This document shows positions 16,749 to 25,095 of a DNA stretch of 64,000 nucleotides, one piece after another; the stretch's first letter is position 1; each line of letters opens with the position of its first letter. The DNA is from Herbidospora cretacea (GTDB lineage Bacteria > Actinomycetota > Actinomycetes > Streptosporangiales > Streptosporangiaceae): NCBI RefSeq assembly GCF_001570605.1, contig NZ_BBXG01000014.1, forward strand, positions 62,001 to 126,000, read 5' to 3'. Below the pieces are notes generated by a model. It did no database searches, was not told the origin of the DNA, and saw only the letters and a program-made list of their open reading frames with translations. A program made the position numbers and the translations under genes.

Positions 16749-17264
16749 TCATCCGGCCTTCGCCGCCTGCGCGCGGGCGGCGTCGGCGATCGCGCCGGCG
16801 TCGGCTCCGGTGCCGCTGACGACGATCAGATGGTCTTCGGTGAACACGGCGACCTCTGTCGTGTCGCCGCGCCGCACGAGGTTGGCCGGGCCGGGCCGGG
16901 ACTCCACCTTCCCCGTCGAGGAACACTCGGCGTAGAAGCGCTTGAAGGTCTGGAAGACGTCCGTGCCGGAGACGACGAGCTCCGAGACCGAAGCCCCGCC
17001 GGCCGCCTCGAACACCCGGAACCGCACGCGGGCCTCGGCCGGGGCGATGTCGCGCTTCCCGCACGGCACCATCGCCTCGTCGAGGTCGGCCCAGCGCGTG
17101 TCGCCGCTCGCGCCGGCTGTCCAGGGGCCGCCGGGGAGCTGCGCCGCGTCCAGGAGCACCTGCCGCGCCGCCGGACTGCTGGCCACGACGGGCTCCGGCT
17201 TCGCGGTGCAGGCGGACAGACCGGTCACCGCGACCGCGACGGCGACGAGTGCCCTTCGGCTCAT
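16749..17264 (-). CDS. Secreted lipoprotein, last gene of the Sec/Mau-like operon
   Basis: This 171-residue protein starts at ATG 17264, after AAGGAGG. A signal peptide of about 19 residues ends in the lipobox LSAC, so it should be lipid-anchored on the outer face of the membrane. Mature residues include two further cysteines (MVPCGKRD and YAECSS), compatible with one disulfide. There is no recognised domain. Its start overlaps the MauE-like stop by four bases (ATGA), so it belongs to the same operon and may be a partner of that redox module. Confidence 0.85.
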   Translation of the reverse strand: MSRRALVAVAVAVTGLSACTAKPEPVVASSPAARQVLLDAAQLPGGPWTAGASGDTRWADLDEAMVPCGKRDIAPAEARVRFRVFEAAGGASVSELVVSGTDVFQTFKRFYAECSSTGKVESRPGPANLVRRGDTTEVAVFTEDHLIVVSGTGADAGAIADAARAQAAKAG

Positions 17265-17761
17265 CCGGGCCTCCTTCCAGCAGACGACGACAGAACCGAC
17301 AGCGCCGACAGCGCGACGACCGCCAGCAGGGCGGTGAACCCGGCCAGGGCCAGGTGCGGAAGGCGGTCGAGCACGGCCTCCGGAAGGGGCACCGCTCCCG
17401 CCGCCATCACGGCGCTCGCGGCGCTCCACACGGCGCCGATGACCGCCTTCGCCGGGGACACGGGGGTGACCGCGTCGAGACAGCCACACGGGACCCGGCC
17501 GCGTACCCGCAGCAGAATCAGGAGATACCCGGTCAGCGCGGCGTGCCAACCGGCCGCCAGCGCCCAGACGGCCCGGCCGGGAGCTCCCCCGACCCAGACC
17601 GCGATCACCGCGACGCCGAGCACCGGTTCGGCGAGTCCGGCGGCGCGGATCACCCAGAAGGGCAGCAGGCCGTGCCGCCGCGTGACCTCCTCGGCGCGGA
17701 GGAACCCCGCCGCCACGAGGAGCAGCGCCCCGGCCAGCGCCACGTCCGCGACCAGGATCAC
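17261..17761 (-). CDS. MauE-like (DoxX/VKOR-type) membrane redox protein
   Basis: This 166-residue protein has about four to five transmembrane helices and a conserved RVPCGCLDAVTP loop; a CxC pair at this place is the mark of MauE-type proteins, which pair with MauD in making disulfides of methylamine dehydrogenase. It starts three bases after the stop of the putative selenoprotein. MauE function is known from the methylamine operon of proteobacteria; the client here is probably the Cys-rich Tat protein at 18475 (inference). Confidence 0.8.
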   Translation of the reverse strand: MILVADVALAGALLLVAAGFLRAEEVTRRHGLLPFWVIRAAGLAEPVLGVAVIAVWVGGAPGRAVWALAAGWHAALTGYLLILLRVRGRVPCGCLDAVTPVSPAKAVIGAVWSAASAVMAAGAVPLPEAVLDRLPHLALAGFTALLAVVALSALSVLSSSAGRRPG

Positions 17762-17764
17762 CGG

Positions 17765-18478
17765 TCACCACCCCATCAGCAGGACCAGCAGCGCGAGCAG
17801 GAATCCGGCCGCGCACCACCGGCCCACCCAGGCCAGCCTGCCCAGCAGGTGGCGGTCCCACCGGGCGGGGTCACCGCTCAGCGACCTTGTGAGCGGCATC
17901 AGCACCCGGCCCAGGCCGAACCCGAGCCCGGCCAGCAGGCCGGGCAGCAGGCCTCCGACGAGCACGAGGGTGAGCACCAGCGCGTGCGGGAGAGCGGTCG
18001 GGGTGAAGGTGCGCACGCCCGTGCCCATCTCGAAACCGAACTGGAAAGGCCCCTCGAACCGGCTGCGCGGGATGATCTCCTGCGGCACCAGCCTGCGGTT
18101 CTGGATCAGCCCGAGCGGACGTCCGGCCAGTTCGAAGGCGAGCAGCACGGCCGCCACCGGGATCAGCGCCCAGGTCCGCCAGGTCTCCGGCACCACCGAG
18201 ACGAGACCGCCGAAGGCCCCCGCGACCGTGCCCGACACCAGCGCGCCCAGGACCAGCCCGGAGGAGAACGCCGTCAGTTGTCCCCGCCAGACCGGCGAGG
18301 TCAGCAGATCCGCTGAGTTGAGGCTTCAAACGGAGCCGGACAGCGAGAACCCGGCGACCACCCCCATCAGCGCCCAGGCGAGGAAGTCCAGCCGGCCGGG
18401 CCAGACCGCTCCGGCCACCGCGACGACCGCGGTCAGGACGAAGAGGAGCCCGGCCGTTCGGGTGGCGGGCAGGGTCAC
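17765..18478 (-). CDS. Putative selenoprotein: membrane protein with Sec51 (in-frame TGA)
   Basis: Read through the TGA at 18326-18328 this is one 237-residue membrane protein. It starts at GTG 18478, overlapping the previous stop (GTGA), and has about six helices (near 9-26, 32-48, 68-92, 102-117, 161-190 and 215-236). The segment GFSLSGSV is followed by TGA and then, in the same frame, SLNSADLLTSPVWRGQLTAF. The part downstream has no usable ribosome site at its first start (GTG 18238), and the frame is open on both sides of the TGA with normal third-base GC except near the hairpins. A SECIS-like hairpin begins 25 bases after TGA. selA, selB and tRNA-Sec are upstream on the same strand. Neighbours are thiol-redox proteins, where Sec often replaces Cys. 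The alternative is a nonsense mutation. The family is unrecognised; EMGTGVRTFTP is a distinctive loop. Confidence 0.75.
18282..18300 (-). promoter_or_regulatory. Bacterial SECIS element (apical loop GGUCU)
   Basis: On the mRNA strand CCUCGCC pairs with GGCGGGG over seven bases (one U-G), closing the five-base loop GGUCU. The loop matches that of E. coli fdhF (AGGUCU). The loop begins 32 bases after the TGA, inside the range I recall for bacterial SECIS elements (about 16-37) and with G in the first two loop positions. A second hairpin, UCAGC-GGAUCU-GCUGA (18301-18316), abuts it and could act instead or stack on it. Confidence 0.75.
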
Positions 18479-18972
18479 GGGTTGGCCCGCGAGCAGATGT
18501 AGAAGGTGCTGCCCGCGCCGTACACCACGAAGCGGCCGTCGGCGCAGCGGTAGGGGGTGCTGCCGTGCGTCCAGCGCCAGGCGTTCTTCTTCGAGGCCCC
18601 GCTCGCGCCGCACTCCACGATCGGCGTGTAGTAGGAGTAGGCGTTGCCGTCGGTGCGGAACCAGCCGTCGCTGCCGCAGTAGCTGCTGGCGTAGGACCCG
18701 CCCACGCACACCCGCTGGGGGGTGCCGTCCTTGTAGCCGTCGAAGTTGGCGTAGCCGCTGTTGGAGCAGCCGGACCACTCCGAGCCCGCGGTCGCCGAGG
18801 CGCTCTTGATGCGGGCGGGCGGCAGGGCGCCCACCACGGTCAGCGCCAGGGCTCCGCCGAGCACGCCGACCGACTTGACCATCGTGCGTCGCGACACCCG
18901 GACCCGGACCGGCGGACGCGCCGCCACGTCCTCGTCGGCCGCCGGCACGTCGGACCAGTAGTCGGGGGTCAT
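18475..18972 (-). CDS. Tat-exported Cys-rich protein in Mau-like cluster
   Basis: This 165-residue protein starts at ATG 18972 with GAAGGAC before it. A twin-arginine signal is clear: SRRTMVKSVGVLGGALALTV, preceded by a long charged n-region, with cleavage near SASA. The mature part (about 105 residues) has six cysteines (GCSN, RVCVG, SYCGSD, VECGAS, YRCADG, YICSR) and several Trp/Tyr. It is flanked by MauD-like and MauE-like genes, as is the light chain MauA in methylamine operons, which is also Tat-exported and disulfide-rich. Direct sequence similarity to MauA is not evident. It could be a disulfide-dependent secreted enzyme subunit or a small extracellular protein; function unknown. Confidence 0.8.
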   Translation of the reverse strand: MTPDYWSDVPAADEDVAARPPVRVRVSRRTMVKSVGVLGGALALTVVGALPPARIKSASATAGSEWSGCSNSGYANFDGYKDGTPQRVCVGGSYASSYCGSDGWFRTDGNAYSYYTPIVECGASGASKKNAWRWTHGSTPYRCADGRFVVYGAGSTFYICSRANP

Positions 18973-18977
18973 GTCCT

Positions 18978-19484
18978 TCACCTCACGTTCGACGATTCGG
19001 GCAGATCCACCCCGAGGAGCCGGTCCAGGTCCGGGTCGGACCCGACCGCGCGGCGCCATTCCTCGACGCCGTCGGGCGTGTACTTGACGAGCGAGGGGGT
19101 CGCGCCGACCGCGACCGAACCGAGCAGGTCGGCGTCGATCACGGCCTCGACGTGCGGGGCCGGTTCGACCCAGGCCGCGCACGCCGCACCCGCGCTCAGC
19201 AGGACCAGGTGGCCGTCGACCCGCGGCGTCCCGGCCAGATGAACGGCGCGATCCCGGCAGCTCGGGCACTGCTCGGAGACCACGAGGACGAAGGTCGGCC
19301 GCCCGTCGGCGGAGGCGAAACGGGCCACCCGCCGGACGGCGGCCGGACCGGGTTCGGCGGCGGGTGCGGCCAGCACCGCCTGCTGGAGCTCGCGCACGAT
19401 CCTGAGCAGGGCGGAGATCGCGAACAGGGCGATCACCATGCCGAGGAAGGCGAACACGGCCAGCGAGTTGACGACGTTCTGCAC
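18978..19484 (-). CDS. MauD/TlpA-like membrane-anchored thioredoxin
   Basis: This 168-residue protein starts at GTG 19484, five bases after the previous stop. An N-terminal membrane anchor (about residues 6-27, AVFAFLGMVIALFAISALL) is followed by a thioredoxin fold with the active site VVSEQCPSCRDRA (CPSC) and the cis-Pro region SVAVGATPSLVKYTPDG. This is the MauD/TlpA type, which reduces or oxidises disulfides outside the membrane. It precedes the Tat Cys-rich protein by five bases, so that protein is the likely substrate. Confidence 0.85.
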   Translation of the reverse strand: MQNVVNSLAVFAFLGMVIALFAISALLRIVRELQQAVLAAPAAEPGPAAVRRVARFASADGRPTFVLVVSEQCPSCRDRAVHLAGTPRVDGHLVLLSAGAACAAWVEPAPHVEAVIDADLLGSVAVGATPSLVKYTPDGVEEWRRAVGSDPDLDRLLGVDLPESSNVR

Positions 19485-19489
19485 GGCGA

Positions 19490-20215
19490 TCAGCTCAGCA
19501 CGCAGGTGAGGGAGTCGGCGACGGCCGCGAAGCGCGGGTCCCCGGCCTCCCGCGCCGTCAGGATCGTGGTCGTCGAGGTGTTGACCAGGATGGCCGAGCG
19601 CAGGACCCGCCCGTCGTCGGCCCGCTCGTCGCGTTTCCACAACGCGCCGCCGCGCACCCGTTTGCCCGTGCCGCCGGGGGTGGGCAGCGATCCGGCCGGG
19701 TTCACCTGGATCGAGCAGACGCCTTCCAGGCTGTTGACCGCCAGCAGGCCGTCCATGCGGACCCGCGCGCCGAGCCGGGGGGCCAGGACGACGCCCTCCG
19801 GGGCGTCGCGGACGTCGAAGGCGGCGAGCAGGCCGATGAACACCTCGAACGGCACATTGGTCCCCTGGATGAAGGTGTAGACCTCATGGTGCGGCCCGAT
19901 CCACAGCATGGTCGTGCCGCCGTTCTCCGGGTCCTCGTGGGAGACCAGACGGGCTCCGTTCCACGACACCTCGCGGACGGTGAACCGGTCGTACTCGCCG
20001 AGGTGGCGGGCGATGAGCTCGCGCGCACCCGCGGCGCCGGTGTGGAAACGCTGGGCGCCGCTTTCGTTCCGCGCCCAGAACAGGTAGCTCCAGGCCATGG
20101 TGAAGGGCTCTGGACCGCCGTCAGCGGTGAGCGTCCGGCCATCAGGTGTTCGCGCTAACATCGCCACGGCACCAGAGTGAGCGGTGGGCGTCCACGGCCG
20201 CCATACGACCGCCAT
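19490..20215 (-). CDS. Hypothetical protein of the Sec/Mau-like operon
   Basis: This 241-residue chain has no recognised family, signal peptide or membrane segment. It is placed between a SARP regulator and the MauD-like gene, 12 bases after the SARP stop. The central part reads TTMLWIGPHHEVYTFIQGTN and then PFEVFIGLLAAFDV, a compact alpha/beta pattern. The start is uncertain: ATG 20215 is the longest, ATG 20161 and ATG 20098 are in frame, and none has a good ribosome site; the conserved-looking part begins at MAWSYLFWAR (20098). Confidence 0.7.
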   Translation of the reverse strand: MAVVWRPWTPTAHSGAVAMLARTPDGRTLTADGGPEPFTMAWSYLFWARNESGAQRFHTGAAGARELIARHLGEYDRFTVREVSWNGARLVSHEDPENGGTTMLWIGPHHEVYTFIQGTNVPFEVFIGLLAAFDVRDAPEGVVLAPRLGARVRMDGLLAVNSLEGVCSIQVNPAGSLPTPGGTGKRVRGGALWKRDERADDGRVLRSAILVNTSTTTILTAREAGDPRFAAVADSLTCVLS

Positions 20216-20227
20216 ACGACCGCCACA

Positions 20228-20977
20228 TCACAGGCCGGCGTCCTCCATGAGGATCCGGTCGTGCAGAGCCGTCAGCGTGGTGGACGGCCCGACCCCGATC
20301 TGCTCGACCAGGGCCGCCCGGCAGTCGTGGTAGGTCAGCAGCGCGTCGGCCCGGCGTCCGCTCTTGTGCAGGGCGAGCATGAGGCGCGCGCGCAGGTCCT
20401 CGCGCAACGGCGCGCGGGCGACCGCGATCCGGAGCTGGTCGATGGCCTCCTCGTAGGCCCCCAGGCGGATGCAGGCGCCGGCGAAGTCGCCTATCGCGGC
20501 CGTCCGGCGCTCGTTGAGCTGGGTGGCGGCGTTGCGCAGCGCCTCGGAGCTGTCGGCGAGATCCTGGAGCGCCGCGCCGCGCCAGAGCGCGAGCCCCTCC
20601 CTAAGCAGGCGGGCCGCCGAGGCGTCGTCGCGCTCGCCCAGCGCGGTGGCCGCGGCCGACCGGGCCGCCTCGAAGTCGGCCAGATCGAGCCGGTCCTCGA
20701 CGTCGGTCACCCGGTAGCCGCCGGGCTCGGTCCGGATCTCCACGCCGGAGCAGGCCAGCCCCTTGCGCAGGTCCGCGATGTAGGTCTGCAGGTTCCGCCG
20801 TGCCGACGGCGGCGCGCCGTCACCCCAGAGGACGGCGGTGCAGCGCTCGGTCGAGACCGTGTGAGGGGCATCGAGCAGCAGCAGAGCCAGGAGCTGCCGG
20901 TGCTTGATCCGGGTCACGGCGAGCCGGCCACCGTCCGCTCGCTGGATCTCGAAGTGCCCGAGCAGGAGAAATCGCAT
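20228..20977 (-). CDS. SARP/BTAD-type transcriptional regulator
   Basis: This 249-residue protein starts at ATG 20977 with TGGAG upstream. The N-terminal OmpR-like winged helix (about residues 1-95: MRFLLLGHFEIQR, IKHRQLLALLLLDAPHTV and LWGDGAPPSARRNLQTYIAD) is followed by a bacterial transcriptional activation domain of tetratricopeptide type (about 100-245: ALWRGAALQDL, LRLGAYEEAIDQLR-like helices, GVGPSTTLTALH). This is the small SARP form that activates antibiotic or secondary-metabolism clusters. It is 29 bases downstream of tRNA-Sec and first in the operon, so it probably activates that operon. Confidence 0.92.
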   Translation of the reverse strand: MRFLLLGHFEIQRADGGRLAVTRIKHRQLLALLLLDAPHTVSTERCTAVLWGDGAPPSARRNLQTYIADLRKGLACSGVEIRTEPGGYRVTDVEDRLDLADFEAARSAAATALGERDDASAARLLREGLALWRGAALQDLADSSEALRNAATQLNERRTAAIGDFAGACIRLGAYEEAIDQLRIAVARAPLREDLRARLMLALHKSGRRADALLTYHDCRAALVEQIGVGPSTTLTALHDRILMEDAGL

Positions 20978-21006
20978 AGAACTCCAGCCGACTCTGGGGG
21001 GAGCAG

Positions 21007-21099
21007 CGGAGACGGACGGGAATCGAACCCGCCGCGCCGAGGTCCTCGGCGCCACCGGTTTTGAAGACCGGGAGGGCCACCAGGCACCTGCACGTCCCC
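21007..21099 (-). tRNA. selC: Selenocysteine tRNA, anticodon TCA
   Basis: The 93-base sequence on the minus strand starts GGGGACG and pairs with CGTCTCC near the 3' end. The anticodon arm CCGGT-CTTCAAA-ACCGG carries TCA, which reads UGA. A long variable arm (GCGCCGAG...CTCGGCGC) and a T-arm with TTCGATT are present. CCA is not encoded. Length, anticodon and long arm identify tRNA-Sec. It lies 10 bases after selB. Confidence 0.93.
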
Positions 21100-21109
21100 G
21101 TTGATAACG

Positions 21110-22786
21110 CTACCAAAGAAACGTTCTGGAACCAGAGGTGTCCACGCGGCGGGTGACGCCAAGCCGGTCGAGGTGCTCCAGGAGGGGGACGGCGACCCGG
21201 CGGCTGGTGTTCAGCGCGATCCGCGCCTGCGCCACGGTGAACGGCCGGGGCAACCGGGACAGCACCGCGACCGCGTCGTCGGGCGCCTCGGGCGGCAGGA
21301 CGACGCCGGGCGCCAGCCGGACCAGCTCGCCCGCCGCCTCGGCGGCGGCCAGCGCACGCGCGTCGAGCCCCAGTTCCGCGAGCCGGTCCGCGTCCGGCGC
21401 CGCGAAGGGGTCGGCGGCCCAGCTCCGCCGTAGTTCGACGACTCCGGGGGTGCTGGCCGGCAGGACCAGCCGCCCGCGCACCACGCGGACGGAGGTGCCC
21501 TCGGCCAGGGCGTCCACGAGCGACCGGTCCGGCAGGCCGAGCGCCTGGCGCGCGGTCTCCGCCGCCATGCCGGGCTGGGCGGCCACGACCTCGGTGAGAC
21601 GGTGGCGGAGCCCTTCCCAGTGGGCCGGGTCGGCCATCCAGTCTCCCAGGACCGGCTCCGCGGCGACGGGCGTGCCCATGGCGGCCAGTTCGTCGCGCCG
21701 GGCCAGGCCGCGCCGGCGCAACTCGGCCGCGCCGTCCGGCCGGCCGGACATCCCGGCGAGCTCGGCGGCCCGCGCCTTCGCCGCTCCCCTGCGCCGCAGC
21801 TCCGGCGGGCGGACGTCCAGCACCACCGCGCCCCACACCCGGCGGCTGCCGGGATCACGCAGCAACGCCCGGTCGCCGACCCGTATCGGCATCGGCGCGG
21901 GCAGGCTGACCCGCACCGTGTCGGCACCGAGCGCGCGCAGCCGCGCGGGCTCCGCCGCCGTGCCGAGGTGCCACGTCACGTGCTCCGGCGGAGGATCCAC
22001 GCCGGAGACCCGGATGTCGAGCACCCGCACGTCGAGCCAGCGTCCCGGGGTCGTCAGGGTGTGCCCGCGCCGGGGGCGCGCGCCTCCGCGCAGGTTGACC
22101 GCGACCCGCGCGGGGCCGGTGACCTCGGTCCTCGCCACGTTGAGACTGTGCAGCCCGCGGACGCGCACGTCGTCGCCGCCGAGCCGGAGCACGTCGCCGA
22201 CCCGGATCACTCCCGCGCCGAGCGTCCCGGTGACGACGGTCCCCCGCCCTTCGACGGTGAAGACCCGGTCGATCCACAGGCGTACATCCGCCTCCGGGGC
22301 GAGGTCGCCTGTGGGGATGGAGGTCAGCAGAGCGCGTAGCTCCGGCAGGCCGTGTCCGGTGACCGCGCTGACGGCGGTCAGGGGAATGTCCTCCACGGTG
22401 CTGCCGCGCAGTCGCTCACGGCAGTGGGCCAGTACAGGTCCGGGGTCGGCGAGGTCCGACCGGGTGACGGCCAGCACGCCCCGGCTGACTCCCAGAGCGT
22501 GCAGGATCTCCAGGTGTTCCTGGGACTGCACCGCCCAGCCCGCGTCGGCCGCCACCACGAACAGCACCGCCGTGATCGGGCCGACCCCCGCCAGCATGTT
22601 GCCGACGAAGCGTTCGTGGCCGGGCACGTCGACGAAGGCGAGATCCCCCTCCCAGACGTAACCGAGGTCGATGGTCAGCCCGCGCCGGCGCTCCTCCTCC
22701 CACCGGTCGGGTTCCATGCCGGTGAGCGCCCGCAGCAGGGTGGACTTGCCGTGGTCGACGTGCCCGGCGGTGGCGATCACCCGCAC
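21110..22786 (-). CDS. selB: Selenocysteine-specific elongation factor SelB
   Basis: This 558-residue protein starts at GTG 22786 (MRVIATAGHVDHGKST), matching the family's usual start; GTG 22780 gives a GTGA overlap and is the alternative. The GTPase domain has GHVDHGKST (P loop), DVPGHERFVGNM (G3) and TRSD (in place of NKxD, as in SelB). The beta-barrel domains II/III follow (RVFTVEGRGTVVTGTL), and the C-terminal winged helices (about 390-558) that hold the SECIS RNA end in FTVAQARIALNTSRRVAVPL. It delivers Sec-tRNA to the ribosome at SECIS-marked UGA codons. It overlaps selA and precedes tRNA-Sec by 10 bases. Confidence 0.97.
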   Translation of the reverse strand: MRVIATAGHVDHGKSTLLRALTGMEPDRWEEERRRGLTIDLGYVWEGDLAFVDVPGHERFVGNMLAGVGPITAVLFVVAADAGWAVQSQEHLEILHALGVSRGVLAVTRSDLADPGPVLAHCRERLRGSTVEDIPLTAVSAVTGHGLPELRALLTSIPTGDLAPEADVRLWIDRVFTVEGRGTVVTGTLGAGVIRVGDVLRLGGDDVRVRGLHSLNVARTEVTGPARVAVNLRGGARPRRGHTLTTPGRWLDVRVLDIRVSGVDPPPEHVTWHLGTAAEPARLRALGADTVRVSLPAPMPIRVGDRALLRDPGSRRVWGAVVLDVRPPELRRRGAAKARAAELAGMSGRPDGAAELRRRGLARRDELAAMGTPVAAEPVLGDWMADPAHWEGLRHRLTEVVAAQPGMAAETARQALGLPDRSLVDALAEGTSVRVVRGRLVLPASTPGVVELRRSWAADPFAAPDADRLAELGLDARALAAAEAAGELVRLAPGVVLPPEAPDDAVAVLSRLPRPFTVAQARIALNTSRRVAVPLLEHLDRLGVTRRVDTSGSRTFLW

Positions 22787-24063
22787 GCGGCCACCACCGC
22801 GTCGAAGAGTTCGCCGTCGCGGTGCGGTGCGACCGCACGCAGGTCCAGCAGGCAGCGACCGCCCTCGACCCGGCCGACCACCGCCGGCCGGCCCGTCCGC
22901 AGCGGTCCGGCCAGCGCCTCGGCCACCGCCACCGCCGCGCTCGGGAGCGTGACGCCAGGCGCTCCCCCGCCGCCGACGGCCGCTTCGGCGTCCACCGCCT
23001 CGGCCTTCACCCCCGCCTCGGCCAGCCTTCTCACCAGCTCGTCGGCGCGGCGGCGCAGCACGACCGGGTCGGCGCTCAGGGCCTCGCGGGCCGGGTTGGC
23101 CGCGTGGGTGAGGGTGGCCTCCAGCGCCGCGAGCGTCAGCTTGTCGACCCGCAGCGCCCGGGCCAGCGGATGGCGGCGCAGTCGCTCCACCACGTCGGCC
23201 CGCCCGAGCAGCAGGCCGCACTGCGGGCCGCCGAGCAGTTTGTCGCCGCTGGCCGTGACCAGGTCGGCGCCCGCGCGCAGCCACGTCGCCGCGTCGGGTT
23301 CGTCGGGCAGCAGCGGTTCGGGCGTCAGCAGTCCCGAGCCGATGTCGGCGACCAGCGGCACGCCCAACCCGGTCAGCTCGCCGACGGACGGCGTCGCCGC
23401 GAATCCCTCGATGCGGTAGTTCGAGGGATGCACCTTGAGCACGAAACCGGTCGCGGGCCCGATCGCCCCGGCGTAGTCGGCCACGGATGTGCGGTTGGTG
23501 GTGCCGACCTCGCGCAGGCGGGCGCCGGTGGAGGTCAGCAGCTCGGGCAGCCGGAAGCCGTCGCCGATCTCGACCAGTTCCCCCCGGCTGATGACGATCT
23601 CCCGCCCCTGGGCCAGCGCGGTCGCGGCCAGCGCCAGCGCGGCGGCGTTGTTGTTGACGAGGTGGACCGCCTCCGCGTCCGGGACGGCCCGCGCGAGCGC
23701 GGCCAGAGCGGCCCGGCCGCGCCGGGCCCGGCGCCCGGTCTCCAGGTCGAACTCGACGTCGGTGGTCCCGCCCGCGCCGCGGATCGCGTCCAGGGCCGGG
23801 GCGGAGAGCGGAGCCCGGCCGAGGTTGGTGTGCAGCAGCACCCCCGTCGCGTTGAGCACCTCGCGGGGACCGCCGCCCGGCAGCGACCGCACCACCTCGT
23901 CGGCCACGTCGGCGGGGCTGATCTCGCCGTCCCTCGCCCGTCGTTGAGCCGCCCGGACGGCCCCTTTGACGCGGTCGCGTCCCATGAGCTCGACGAAGGG
24001 GGCGAGGCGGGGATCGTCCAGGAGCGCGTCGGTGCGCGGGATGTGGCGCCGCGAGTCGGTCAC
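22777..24063 (-). CDS. selA: L-seryl-tRNA(Sec) selenium transferase SelA
   Basis: This 428-residue protein starts at GTG 24063. The PLP-dependent fold shows VLNATGVLLHTNLGRAPLS, NNNAAALALA, EIVISRGELVEIGDGFRLP and the catalytic lysine region VTASGDKLLGGPQCGLL. It converts Ser-tRNA(Sec) to Sec-tRNA(Sec) with selenophosphate from SelD. There is no ribosome site before the GTG and an AT-rich block (TATATCC) about 10 bases upstream, so the mRNA may be leaderless. It is divergent from selD (48 bases). Confidence 0.97.
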   Translation of the reverse strand: MTDSRRHIPRTDALLDDPRLAPFVELMGRDRVKGAVRAAQRRARDGEISPADVADEVVRSLPGGGPREVLNATGVLLHTNLGRAPLSAPALDAIRGAGGTTDVEFDLETGRRARRGRAALAALARAVPDAEAVHLVNNNAAALALAATALAQGREIVISRGELVEIGDGFRLPELLTSTGARLREVGTTNRTSVADYAGAIGPATGFVLKVHPSNYRIEGFAATPSVGELTGLGVPLVADIGSGLLTPEPLLPDEPDAATWLRAGADLVTASGDKLLGGPQCGLLLGRADVVERLRRHPLARALRVDKLTLAALEATLTHAANPAREALSADPVVLRRRADELVRRLAEAGVKAEAVDAEAAVGGGGAPGVTLPSAAVAVAEALAGPLRTGRPAVVGRVEGGRCLLDLRAVAPHRDGELFDAVVAACG

Positions 24064-24111: not shown

Positions 24112-25095
24112 ATGGTGAGACTGACCCAATACGCCCAAGGCGGCGGCTGCGCCTGCAAGATTCCTCCCGGCGAACTGGAGGACGTCCTGACCGGGCTGGG
24201 CGTCACCCCTGCCGACCCGGCCGGGGAACTCCTGGTCGGGCTGGAGACCGGGGACGACGCCGCGGTCGTCCGGGTCGAGGGCGGCACGGCGATCGTCAGC
24301 ACCGCCGACTTCTTCACCCCCGTGGTGGACGACCCCTACGACTGGGGCCGCATCGCCGCCGCCAACGCCCTGTCCGACGTGTACGCCATGGGCGGCCGGC
24401 CCCTCATGGCGCTCAACCTGCTCTGCTGGCCCCGCGAGACCCTGCCGTACGACCTGGCCCGCGAGGTCCTGCGCGGCGGCGCGGACGTGGCCGCGCAGGC
24501 CGGCTGCCACGTGGCGGGCGGCCACAGCGTCGTCGACGCCGAGCCGAAGTACGGCATGGCCGTCACCGGCCTCGCCGATCCCGCCGCCCTGATGCGCAAC
24601 GACGCCGGCCGGGCCGGGGTGCCGCTGTCGCTGACCAAGCCGCTCGGCCTCGGCGTGCTCAACAACCGCCACAAGGCGACGGGCGAGGTGTTCCCGCAGG
24701 CCGTCACGGTCATGACCCAGCTCAACGCCGCCGCGAGCGAGGCCGCACTCAGCGCCGGGGTGCGCTGCGCGACGGACGTGACCGGGTTCGGGCTCCTCGG
24801 TCACCTGTTCAAGCTGGCCAGGGCCTCGGGTGTCACGGCCGTGCTCGACAGCCGGGAGGTGCCCATGCTGGACGGAGCGCGCGAGGCCGTGCGGGACGGA
24901 TTCGTGCCCGGCGGCTCGCGGCGCAACCTCGACTGGGTGGCGGCCCACCTGACCGGCTCGGCCGACGAGGAGACGATGGTGCTGCTGGCCGACGCGCAGA
25001 CCTCCGGAGGGCTGCTGATCGCCGGGGAGGTGCCCGGCGCCCCGGTGATCGGCGAACTGGTGCCTCGCGGGGAGTTCCCGATCGTGATCAGATGA
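24112..25095 (+). CDS. selD: Selenide, water dikinase SelD
   Basis: This 327-residue protein begins MVRLTQYAQGGGCACK; the Cys/Lys pair near the start is the catalytic signature (Cys form, not Sec). ATP-binding marks are LETGDDAAVV, STADFFTPVVDDPYDWGRIA, AANALSDVYAMGG and AGGHSVVDAEPKYG. It makes selenophosphate from selenide and ATP. ATG 24112 is chosen; ATG 24100 is in frame. It is divergent from selAB and shares a very short promoter region with it. Confidence 0.97.
   Translation: MVRLTQYAQGGGCACKIPPGELEDVLTGLGVTPADPAGELLVGLETGDDAAVVRVEGGTAIVSTADFFTPVVDDPYDWGRIAAANALSDVYAMGGRPLMALNLLCWPRETLPYDLAREVLRGGADVAAQAGCHVAGGHSVVDAEPKYGMAVTGLADPAALMRNDAGRAGVPLSLTKPLGLGVLNNRHKATGEVFPQAVTVMTQLNAAASEAALSAGVRCATDVTGFGLLGHLFKLARASGVTAVLDSREVPMLDGAREAVRDGFVPGGSRRNLDWVAAHLTGSADEETMVLLADAQTSGGLLIAGEVPGAPVIGELVPRGEFPIVIR

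Follow-up and report, generated by a model that had tools for sequence, protein, structure and literature searches.

A predicted selenoprotein with a probable CcdA/DsbD-related membrane domain, encoded beside the sel genes of Herbidospora cretacea

An interrupted gene and the adjoining sel genes

The subject of this analysis is a minus-strand gene of Herbidospora cretacea that is predicted to encode a membrane selenoprotein. It lies in a stretch of 64,000 nucleotides (contig NZ_BBXG01000014.1, positions 62,001 to 126,000), called the window below and numbered from its first letter. The first-pass annotation of this DNA described a frame of 237 codons broken only by a TGA at codon 51 and tightly packed between its neighbours, and on the minus strand both points hold. 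The frame starts with GTG at 18478, ends with a TGA at 17767-17765 and has its sole interruption at 18328-18326; the stop of the upstream open reading frame (ORF) overlaps its start (GTGA, 18478-18475), and the longest ORF of the next gene, encoding a MauE-family protein, begins at 17761. Unmentioned at that stage were the adjoining genes of selenocysteine (Sec) insertion: those for tRNA-Sec, SelB, SelA and SelD are all found within 7 kb of the candidate gene. The features of this part of the locus, including two hairpins downstream of the TGA, are as follows.

17765..18478, minus strand: predicted selenoprotein gene, membrane protein with Sec at codon 51 (237 codons plus stop)
18326..18328, minus strand: TGA codon 51, predicted to be read as selenocysteine (TGA in 79 of 80 loci)
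18282..18300, minus strand: apical hairpin of the SECIS (selenocysteine insertion sequence) type, 7 bp, loop GGUCU, 32 nt after the TGA (by folding)
18301..18316, minus strand: second small hairpin between the TGA and the apical hairpin (by folding)
21006..21099, minus strand: selC, tRNA-Sec (ARAGORN; RF01852, 75.2 bits)
21110..22780, minus strand: selB (SelB-wing_3 and GTP_EFTU over their cut-offs; TIGR00475, E 5e-68)
22777..24063, minus strand: selA (PF03841, E 4e-98; TIGR00474)
24112..25095, plus strand: selD, Cys form with GGCACK (TIGR00476, E 1e-106)

The selB product scores 230 bits with TIGR00475, just under the cut-off of 242, and the SelA at 22777..24063 is the only SelA match in the window's genome. 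In the same genome, 15 matches to a formate dehydrogenase model include none with a stop, and two of them have Cys at the Sec site; a second formate dehydrogenase model gave no TGA for this genome among the matches listed. The candidate protein itself has no match in Pfam, NCBIfam or PHROGs up to E 0.1.

Three genomes of the window's genus (G001, G003 and G004) have, on a separate contig, an additional SelA that differs from the first (E about 1e-120), and another selenoprotein may be hidden there.

Conservation of the TGA codon and of the hairpin behind it

In a scan of contigs of GTDB species, 190 stretches were found to encode a relative, and the best 80 of the 190 were kept. TGA occupies the codon-51 site in 79 of these 80 loci (76 found by pattern, three added by reading), and the remaining one, L077, has its N-terminal part out of frame. 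Neither Cys, TAA, TAG nor any sense codon occurs at the site among those 79 loci. Searching 149 genomes, the window's included, gave matches in 26, and 26 of the 28 matches hold TGA at the same place; the two others are weak and partial, and one of them turned out to have a TGA just upstream. Clear members of the close family are present in 23 of the 149 genomes, and in the class-wide sample nine matches in seven further genomes all carry TGA. The relatives include members of Herbidospora, Acrocarpospora, Nonomuraea, Actinoplanes, Streptomyces, Micromonospora, Amycolatopsis, Actinomadura and an Acidimicrobiia bin.

If the TGA were a true stop, the gene would be a pseudogene or would encode a peptide of 50 residues, and the half beyond the TGA would be in decay or be translated from a start of its own. 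A GTG ORF of 157 codons does exist downstream of the TGA, and against the more distant loci L061, L062 and L064 the ratio of nonsynonymous to synonymous substitution rates (dN/dS) reaches 0.37-0.66 upstream of the TGA and 0.20-0.40 downstream of it. However, 79 of the 80 loci retain the TGA together with both halves of the gene, comparison with five congeners gives dN/dS values of 0.07-0.28 for the part before the TGA and 0.13-0.29 for the part after it, and all nine of the Cys-only sister-group genomes described below lack SelA. As judged from these codon comparisons, purifying selection acts on both sides of the TGA, and we regard a true stop as extremely improbable.

The presence of the family is correlated with the Sec machinery. 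A strong SelA match was found in all 23 close-family genomes and in 54 of the 126 others (Fisher p 4e-8); for this count, nine of the 86 matches, whose E exceeded 1e-20, were not accepted as SelA. The congener G006 has neither a family member nor SelA. Our Fisher tests leave out G238, G269, G364, G385, G387, G429 and G443, which belong to the close family and are positive for both TGA and SelA.

The hairpin proposed in the first-pass annotation, a GGUCU loop 32 bases after the TGA on a 7-bp stem, was found at 18300-18282 with one G-U pair in the stem and a folding energy of -11.8 kcal/mol. It satisfies the bacterial SECIS constraints printed in PMC13188914: a loop of 3-9 nt, a stem of 4-16 bp, G in the first two loop positions, a spacing of 16-37 nt and a minimum free energy of at most -7.5. 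The second hairpin (18316-18301) is also present as described, though its loop starts about 14 nt after the TGA, outside the spacing range given there. Against dinucleotide shuffles (n = 200) the 19-nt hairpin is unusual (z -2.74, 0/200), and a 51-nt segment gives z -1.85 (9/200). A fairer null inside a gene is synonymous recoding, which is stricter and forms no part of the family definition; in it a 7-bp apical stem arises in 10% of recodings (P 0.10). We rejected the hairpin as a stand-alone proof, and the hairpin of the window taken alone is weak evidence because synonymous recodings fold almost as well. The earlier label of a textbook SECIS is accurate for the form, which fits the constraints, and not as a decisive argument.

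It is the conservation of the hairpin in the aligned sequences, not its energy, that carries the argument. The 6-bp consensus stem is retained in 55 of 58 distinct sequences, and the remaining three have one A.G; in this alignment (A6) identical sequences were merged and L105, L119 and L127, which have a one-codon deletion, were left out. These three retain the GGTCT hairpin at 29 nt. In addition, the excess of synonymous-codon identity in the 79 aligned sequences averages 0.22 over codons 52-66 and 0.08 elsewhere (Mann-Whitney p 0.009, which is only a guide because the sequences are related). Ranked in 15-codon intervals, the constraint on synonymous codons is greatest around codons 47-66: each of the twelve top intervals has its first codon in the range 44 to 58, and the highest-scoring one begins at codon 47. 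Codon 61 always ends in G (codon identity 1.0 against 0.29 expected).

A comparable loop occurs in the actinomycete Sec formate dehydrogenase (TIGR01553), which shares the recoding logic. In nine loci for this enzyme read from other genomes within the same bacterial family, the loop is GGTCT in five (L256-L260) and AGTTT in the other four. The enzyme is unrelated to the window protein, and its loop is located 18 nt after the TGA as against 32.

Two side observations concern the distribution of the close family. Two TGA-bearing paralogues occur in each of two genomes, L062/L064 in Nonomuraea sp. G32 and L065/L123 in Nonomuraea sp. SBT364, with different sets of relatives of the window genes around each copy. 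A very divergent relative, L032:1501-2121 (E 2.5e-6), has its TGA in the motif FGTAUGMN and no obvious GGTCT hairpin, and possibly represents another Sec family.

Exchange of Sec and Cys in a sister group related to CcdA/DsbD

The Cys form at the site is absent from the close family, and the exchange of Sec and Cys was seen in the sister group only. A profile built from distant relatives and run on 396 genomes sampled across the phylum matched in 66 genomes, the window's being one of them. The other 65 comprise 53 with TGA, seven with Cys only and five left unassigned (G711 with a run of N; G640, G729, G530 and G600 with cut or short matches). From the class-wide sample we added G102, G245, G338 and G391 (TGA) and G199 and G106 (Cys); G114 (cut) and G337 (a 28-residue match) were omitted, while G558, which has a TGA copy and a Cys copy, was counted as TGA. 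The commonest motifs of the sister group are WSP[U/C]G.SML and [GS]P[U/C]G.SM.

Its relation to the window family is seen at the profile level: in hhalign (alignment A4 against A7) the two give a probability of 99.3 and E 2e-20, with U51 falling on the P[U/C]G site. In the window's genome the sister profile has the window gene as its sole match (E 3.4e-13). No curated Pfam or NCBIfam model matched the Sec domain of the window protein or of the sister proteins tested.

SelA is present in 55 of the 57 TGA genomes and in none of the nine Cys-only genomes (p 1.5e-9). Moreover, within the WSP[U/C]G.SML set the codon is directly followed by a hairpin in 28 of 29 TGA genes (L214 being counted as positive with a 4-bp variant, L215 as negative) and in none of five Cys genes. 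In one of the latter, L206, the same residues SMLSSI are encoded, but one codon breaks the hairpin.

These data bear on the possibility that the TGA is read through otherwise, as a near-cognate Trp codon or a regulatory stop. The residue at UGA51 is predicted from sequence, which leaves some room for such a reading. However, it is Cys (TGC), not Trp, that replaces TGA in homologues, the family is linked to SelA, selABCD adjoins the gene, and the hairpin is absent in the five TGC genes compared. Non-Sec readthrough is accordingly given very little weight, nearly as little as the true stop. Both kinds of support named in the first-pass annotation were found, namely relatives with TGA and a conserved hairpin and, further away, homologues with Cys (TGC) at the site. 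We consider it highly probable, on this comparative evidence, that the gene encodes a selenoprotein and that UGA51 would be decoded as Sec by the adjoining SelB and tRNA-Sec, guided by the hairpin.

Among the sister loci L190-L217 and L221-L252 there are several subfamilies with TGA at the homologous site, having the motifs WSPUGESML, [FY]GPUGLSMVETI, LWSPUGLSVTETV, SPUGASMVG and GUGTSMNDVF.

The sister group also connects the family to a known fold. Its profile (A7) aligns with the DsbD/CcdA profile (PF02683) over 170 columns (probability 96.2, E 2.5e-9), and its Sec site falls on the Cys of the SPC motif in the first CcdA helix, which is the first redox Cys of CcdA/DsbD; via the sister group, Sec51 is aligned to this residue in the first core helix. 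AlphaFold, run on the window protein with Cys at position 51, gives a confident model (predicted local distance difference test, pLDDT, 93; predicted template modelling score, pTM, 0.91). Its helices can be read as seven membrane spans, two of which are broken (residues 45-49 and 154-162), one just before Sec51 and the other around the invariant T157. In the model this layout suggests a CcdA-type inverted repeat preceded by an N-terminal helix, which is an addition relative to CcdA/DsbD; a sequence search of the Sec protein against PDB gave nothing meaningful. It is likely that the protein has a CcdA/DsbD-related membrane domain, with Sec in place of the redox Cys in the first core helix and no counterpart of the second CcdA Cys.

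Neighbouring genes and a putative selenol/thiol relay

The genes around the Sec gene are arranged on the same strand in the order: uncharacterised gene, CPSC thioredoxin-like gene, Cys-rich Tat-like gene (Tat, twin-arginine translocation), Sec gene, mauE, lipoprotein-like gene; the labels other than MauE were given by eye.

16749..17264, minus strand: small lipoprotein-like gene (label by eye); no Pfam match, relatives in 16 of 80 loci
17261..17761, minus strand: MauE-family membrane protein with a CGC motif (PF07291, 36.4 bits, cut-off 27)
18475..18972, minus strand: Cys-rich protein with a Tat-like RR signal (by eye), probable client; found by tblastn in 29 of 80 loci
18978..19640, minus strand: MauD/thioredoxin-like gene with CPSC (by eye, start uncertain); relatives in 23 of 80 loci
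19490..20215, minus strand: uncharacterised gene conserved beside the cluster (23 of 80 loci); no Pfam match

A relative of MauE was found by tblastn in 17 of 80 loci. The proposal of a MauD/MauE-like thiol module is upheld for MauE (PF07291), while the MauD label, based on CPSC, is only suggestive because this neighbour has no Pfam and no NCBIfam match up to E 0.1. The sister protein L221 is a fusion of the Sec domain with MauE (PF07291, E 2.2e-24), and several other sister proteins have the same CGCFG tail by eye.

In 47 of 79 loci the gene immediately upstream of the Sec gene encodes a Cys-rich RR protein; a filter that itself required RR and at least four Cys picked 52, of which five were dropped by eye as wrong frames (L095, L106, L112, L125 and L132). 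Such a gene was also seen by eye upstream in L082, L090 and L094, and in L119 and L127 its place is taken by a CxxC thioredoxin-like gene. In the partner alignment of 46 rows (A9, L100 and L135 left out) six Cys and two Trp, W132 and W134, are invariant. The sister group shows a similar picture by eye, with a Cys-rich RR protein upstream in 12 of 25 loci and a CxxC thioredoxin-like one in three. The latter were observed in the WSPUGESML subfamily (L190:2129-3631, L193:479-1513 and L201:2103-2936, with GCSVC, GCTTC and GCLTC) and support a thiol role.

Other features of these neighbourhoods were noted, all but the last by eye. The Cys-rich proteins of L082, L090 and L094 have C-terminal repeats resembling peptidoglycan-binding domains, a hint that these proteins may be anchored in the cell wall. 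The Cys-type sister proteins L220, L227 and L228 carry a C-terminal extension of about 190 residues with beta-propeller-like repeats and have a Cys-rich RR-signal gene just upstream; upstream of another Cys-type sister protein, L230:3-686 encodes a rhodanese-like domain. Between the cluster and selC there is an ORF for a BTAD-type regulator (PF03704, window 20228-21055), whose true start is probably later because the start of the longest ORF would overlap the tRNA-Sec gene.

We suggest that the best overall explanation is a selenoprotein with a CcdA/DsbD-related membrane domain acting in a selenol/thiol relay, to which we assign a probability of about 0.7. In the proposed mechanism, SelB and tRNA-Sec would insert Sec at UGA51, guided by the hairpin after the codon. 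Sec51 would then attack or receive a disulfide, which the CGC pair of MauE or the CPSC thioredoxin-like protein may resolve, and the disulfides of the co-encoded Cys-rich exported protein would be made, isomerised or repaired. The gene order, one fusion and the conserved redox residues are observed, and we infer from them the path of the relay, the direction of the electrons and the client; for the joint work with MauE (CGC) and the CPSC protein on the disulfides of the Cys-rich exported protein the chances are about even.

Several observations weigh against this explanation. The energy of the window hairpin is ordinary under synonymous recoding (z -0.6; mean z -0.55 over 77 sequences), and base-pair covariation is slight, with two pairs changed on both sides, one of them inside the loop; we rely instead on the constraint on codons and on the contrast of TGA genes with TGC genes. 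As to the machinery, SelA is also present in the 54 relatives without the close family, and two TGA genomes of the sister group, G688 and G701 (completeness 68% and 73%), show no SelA, while in G650, counted as positive, SelA is only a fragment at a contig end. Of the 80 loci, 34 have SelA or SelB in the flanks that were retrieved, and among the 62 loci whose 8-kb flanks are complete the number is 31; adjacency of the sel genes is common, not general. On the side of the fold, a direct comparison of the window family with CcdA in hhalign gives a probability of 1.6 with no PF02683 match, a Foldseek search of PDB with the model gives no match at E 0.001 or below, and the second invariant or nearly invariant Cys (fourth core helix of CcdA) is absent in both A4 and A7. 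It is plausible that the protein functions in the manner of a CcdA-type domain, but on these results it cannot be classified as one. Finally, the AlphaFold model of the Cys-rich protein is poor (pLDDT 59), and its role as the probable client rests on gene order.

Another selenoprotein function should be considered, in which Sec51 serves the transport or handling of metal or sulfur species rather than disulfide exchange. The lack of a second conserved Cys is in line with this, and the model, with its broken helices and pseudo-symmetry, resembles transporters in layout; moreover, the YeeE/YedE family, with GUxSG, is a membrane selenoprotein transporter in Table 1 of PMC13188914. The MauE fusion in L221, the Cys-rich RR gene directly upstream in many loci and the homology of the sister group to CcdA/DsbD are the arguments against a transporter, which we find unlikely.

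The likeness to the Mau system (MauE, MauD, MauF) includes the adjoining MauE, the MauE fusion in L221, the CPSC neighbour and the Cys-rich, exported-looking partner. Mau proteins mature the cofactor of the methylamine dehydrogenase light chain, and by analogy the Sec protein might help to make a cofactor in the Cys-rich protein, beyond plain disulfides. This would agree with the MauE neighbour and with the two invariant Trp of the partner. But the partner, with no match in Pfam or NCBIfam up to E 0.1, cannot be recognised as a light chain, no meaningful PDB relative was found for it by sequence, and the spacing of its Trp differs from that of the tryptophan tryptophylquinone (TTQ) pair; a role in cofactor formation appears more doubtful still than transport. 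In contrast to Mau systems, no recognised methylamine dehydrogenase subunit occurs among the window neighbours scanned. A plasmid search with the MauE domain gave one weak match. We had also considered the Cys-rich protein as a possible methylamine dehydrogenase light chain, for which Pfam gave no support.

Among described selenoproteins, the accessible part of a 2026 inventory of 119 families (PMC13188914) contains no such family, the nearest being YeeE/YedE (GUxSG) and TsoB, a rhodanese/DsbD fusion-like protein (NF045694). TsoB is likewise a listed selenoprotein tied to DsbD; judged by its entry in Table 1 there, it differs in having two Sec in UxxxxU and a rhodanese part, and the window protein has no match in NCBIfam. 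The accessible parts of PMC12013277 and PMC9312934 make no mention of the family, and our search of the literature on selenoproteins and Mau, with preprints and most subscription journals outside its coverage, gave no earlier report. The first-pass annotation knew of no selenoprotein family of this kind, with which the NCBIfam scans, the accessible part of the inventory and the literature searched agree. This large family, with its unusual single-Sec membrane site, is new to the sources searched and apparently undescribed.

Selenoproteins are easily truncated or missed by gene callers. The Sec protein offers a reason for selABCD in a genome without a detected Sec formate dehydrogenase, and in the window's organism this one gene may be the reason why the Sec machinery is kept, other selenoprotein families not having been searched one by one. 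The chances are roughly equal for and against a broader picture, in which a phylum-wide actinomycete superfamily of CcdA-like membrane proteins, with a lone Sec instead of a Cys pair as its dominant and perhaps ancestral redox residue, would be joined by MauE and a Cys-rich protein of the Tat type in a redox system dedicated to the export side. This raises the questions of why a CcdA-type relay would use one selenol for two thiols and which exported Cys-rich protein needs a single-Sec relay. The role of the Sec protein is probably in disulfide chemistry at the cell surface.
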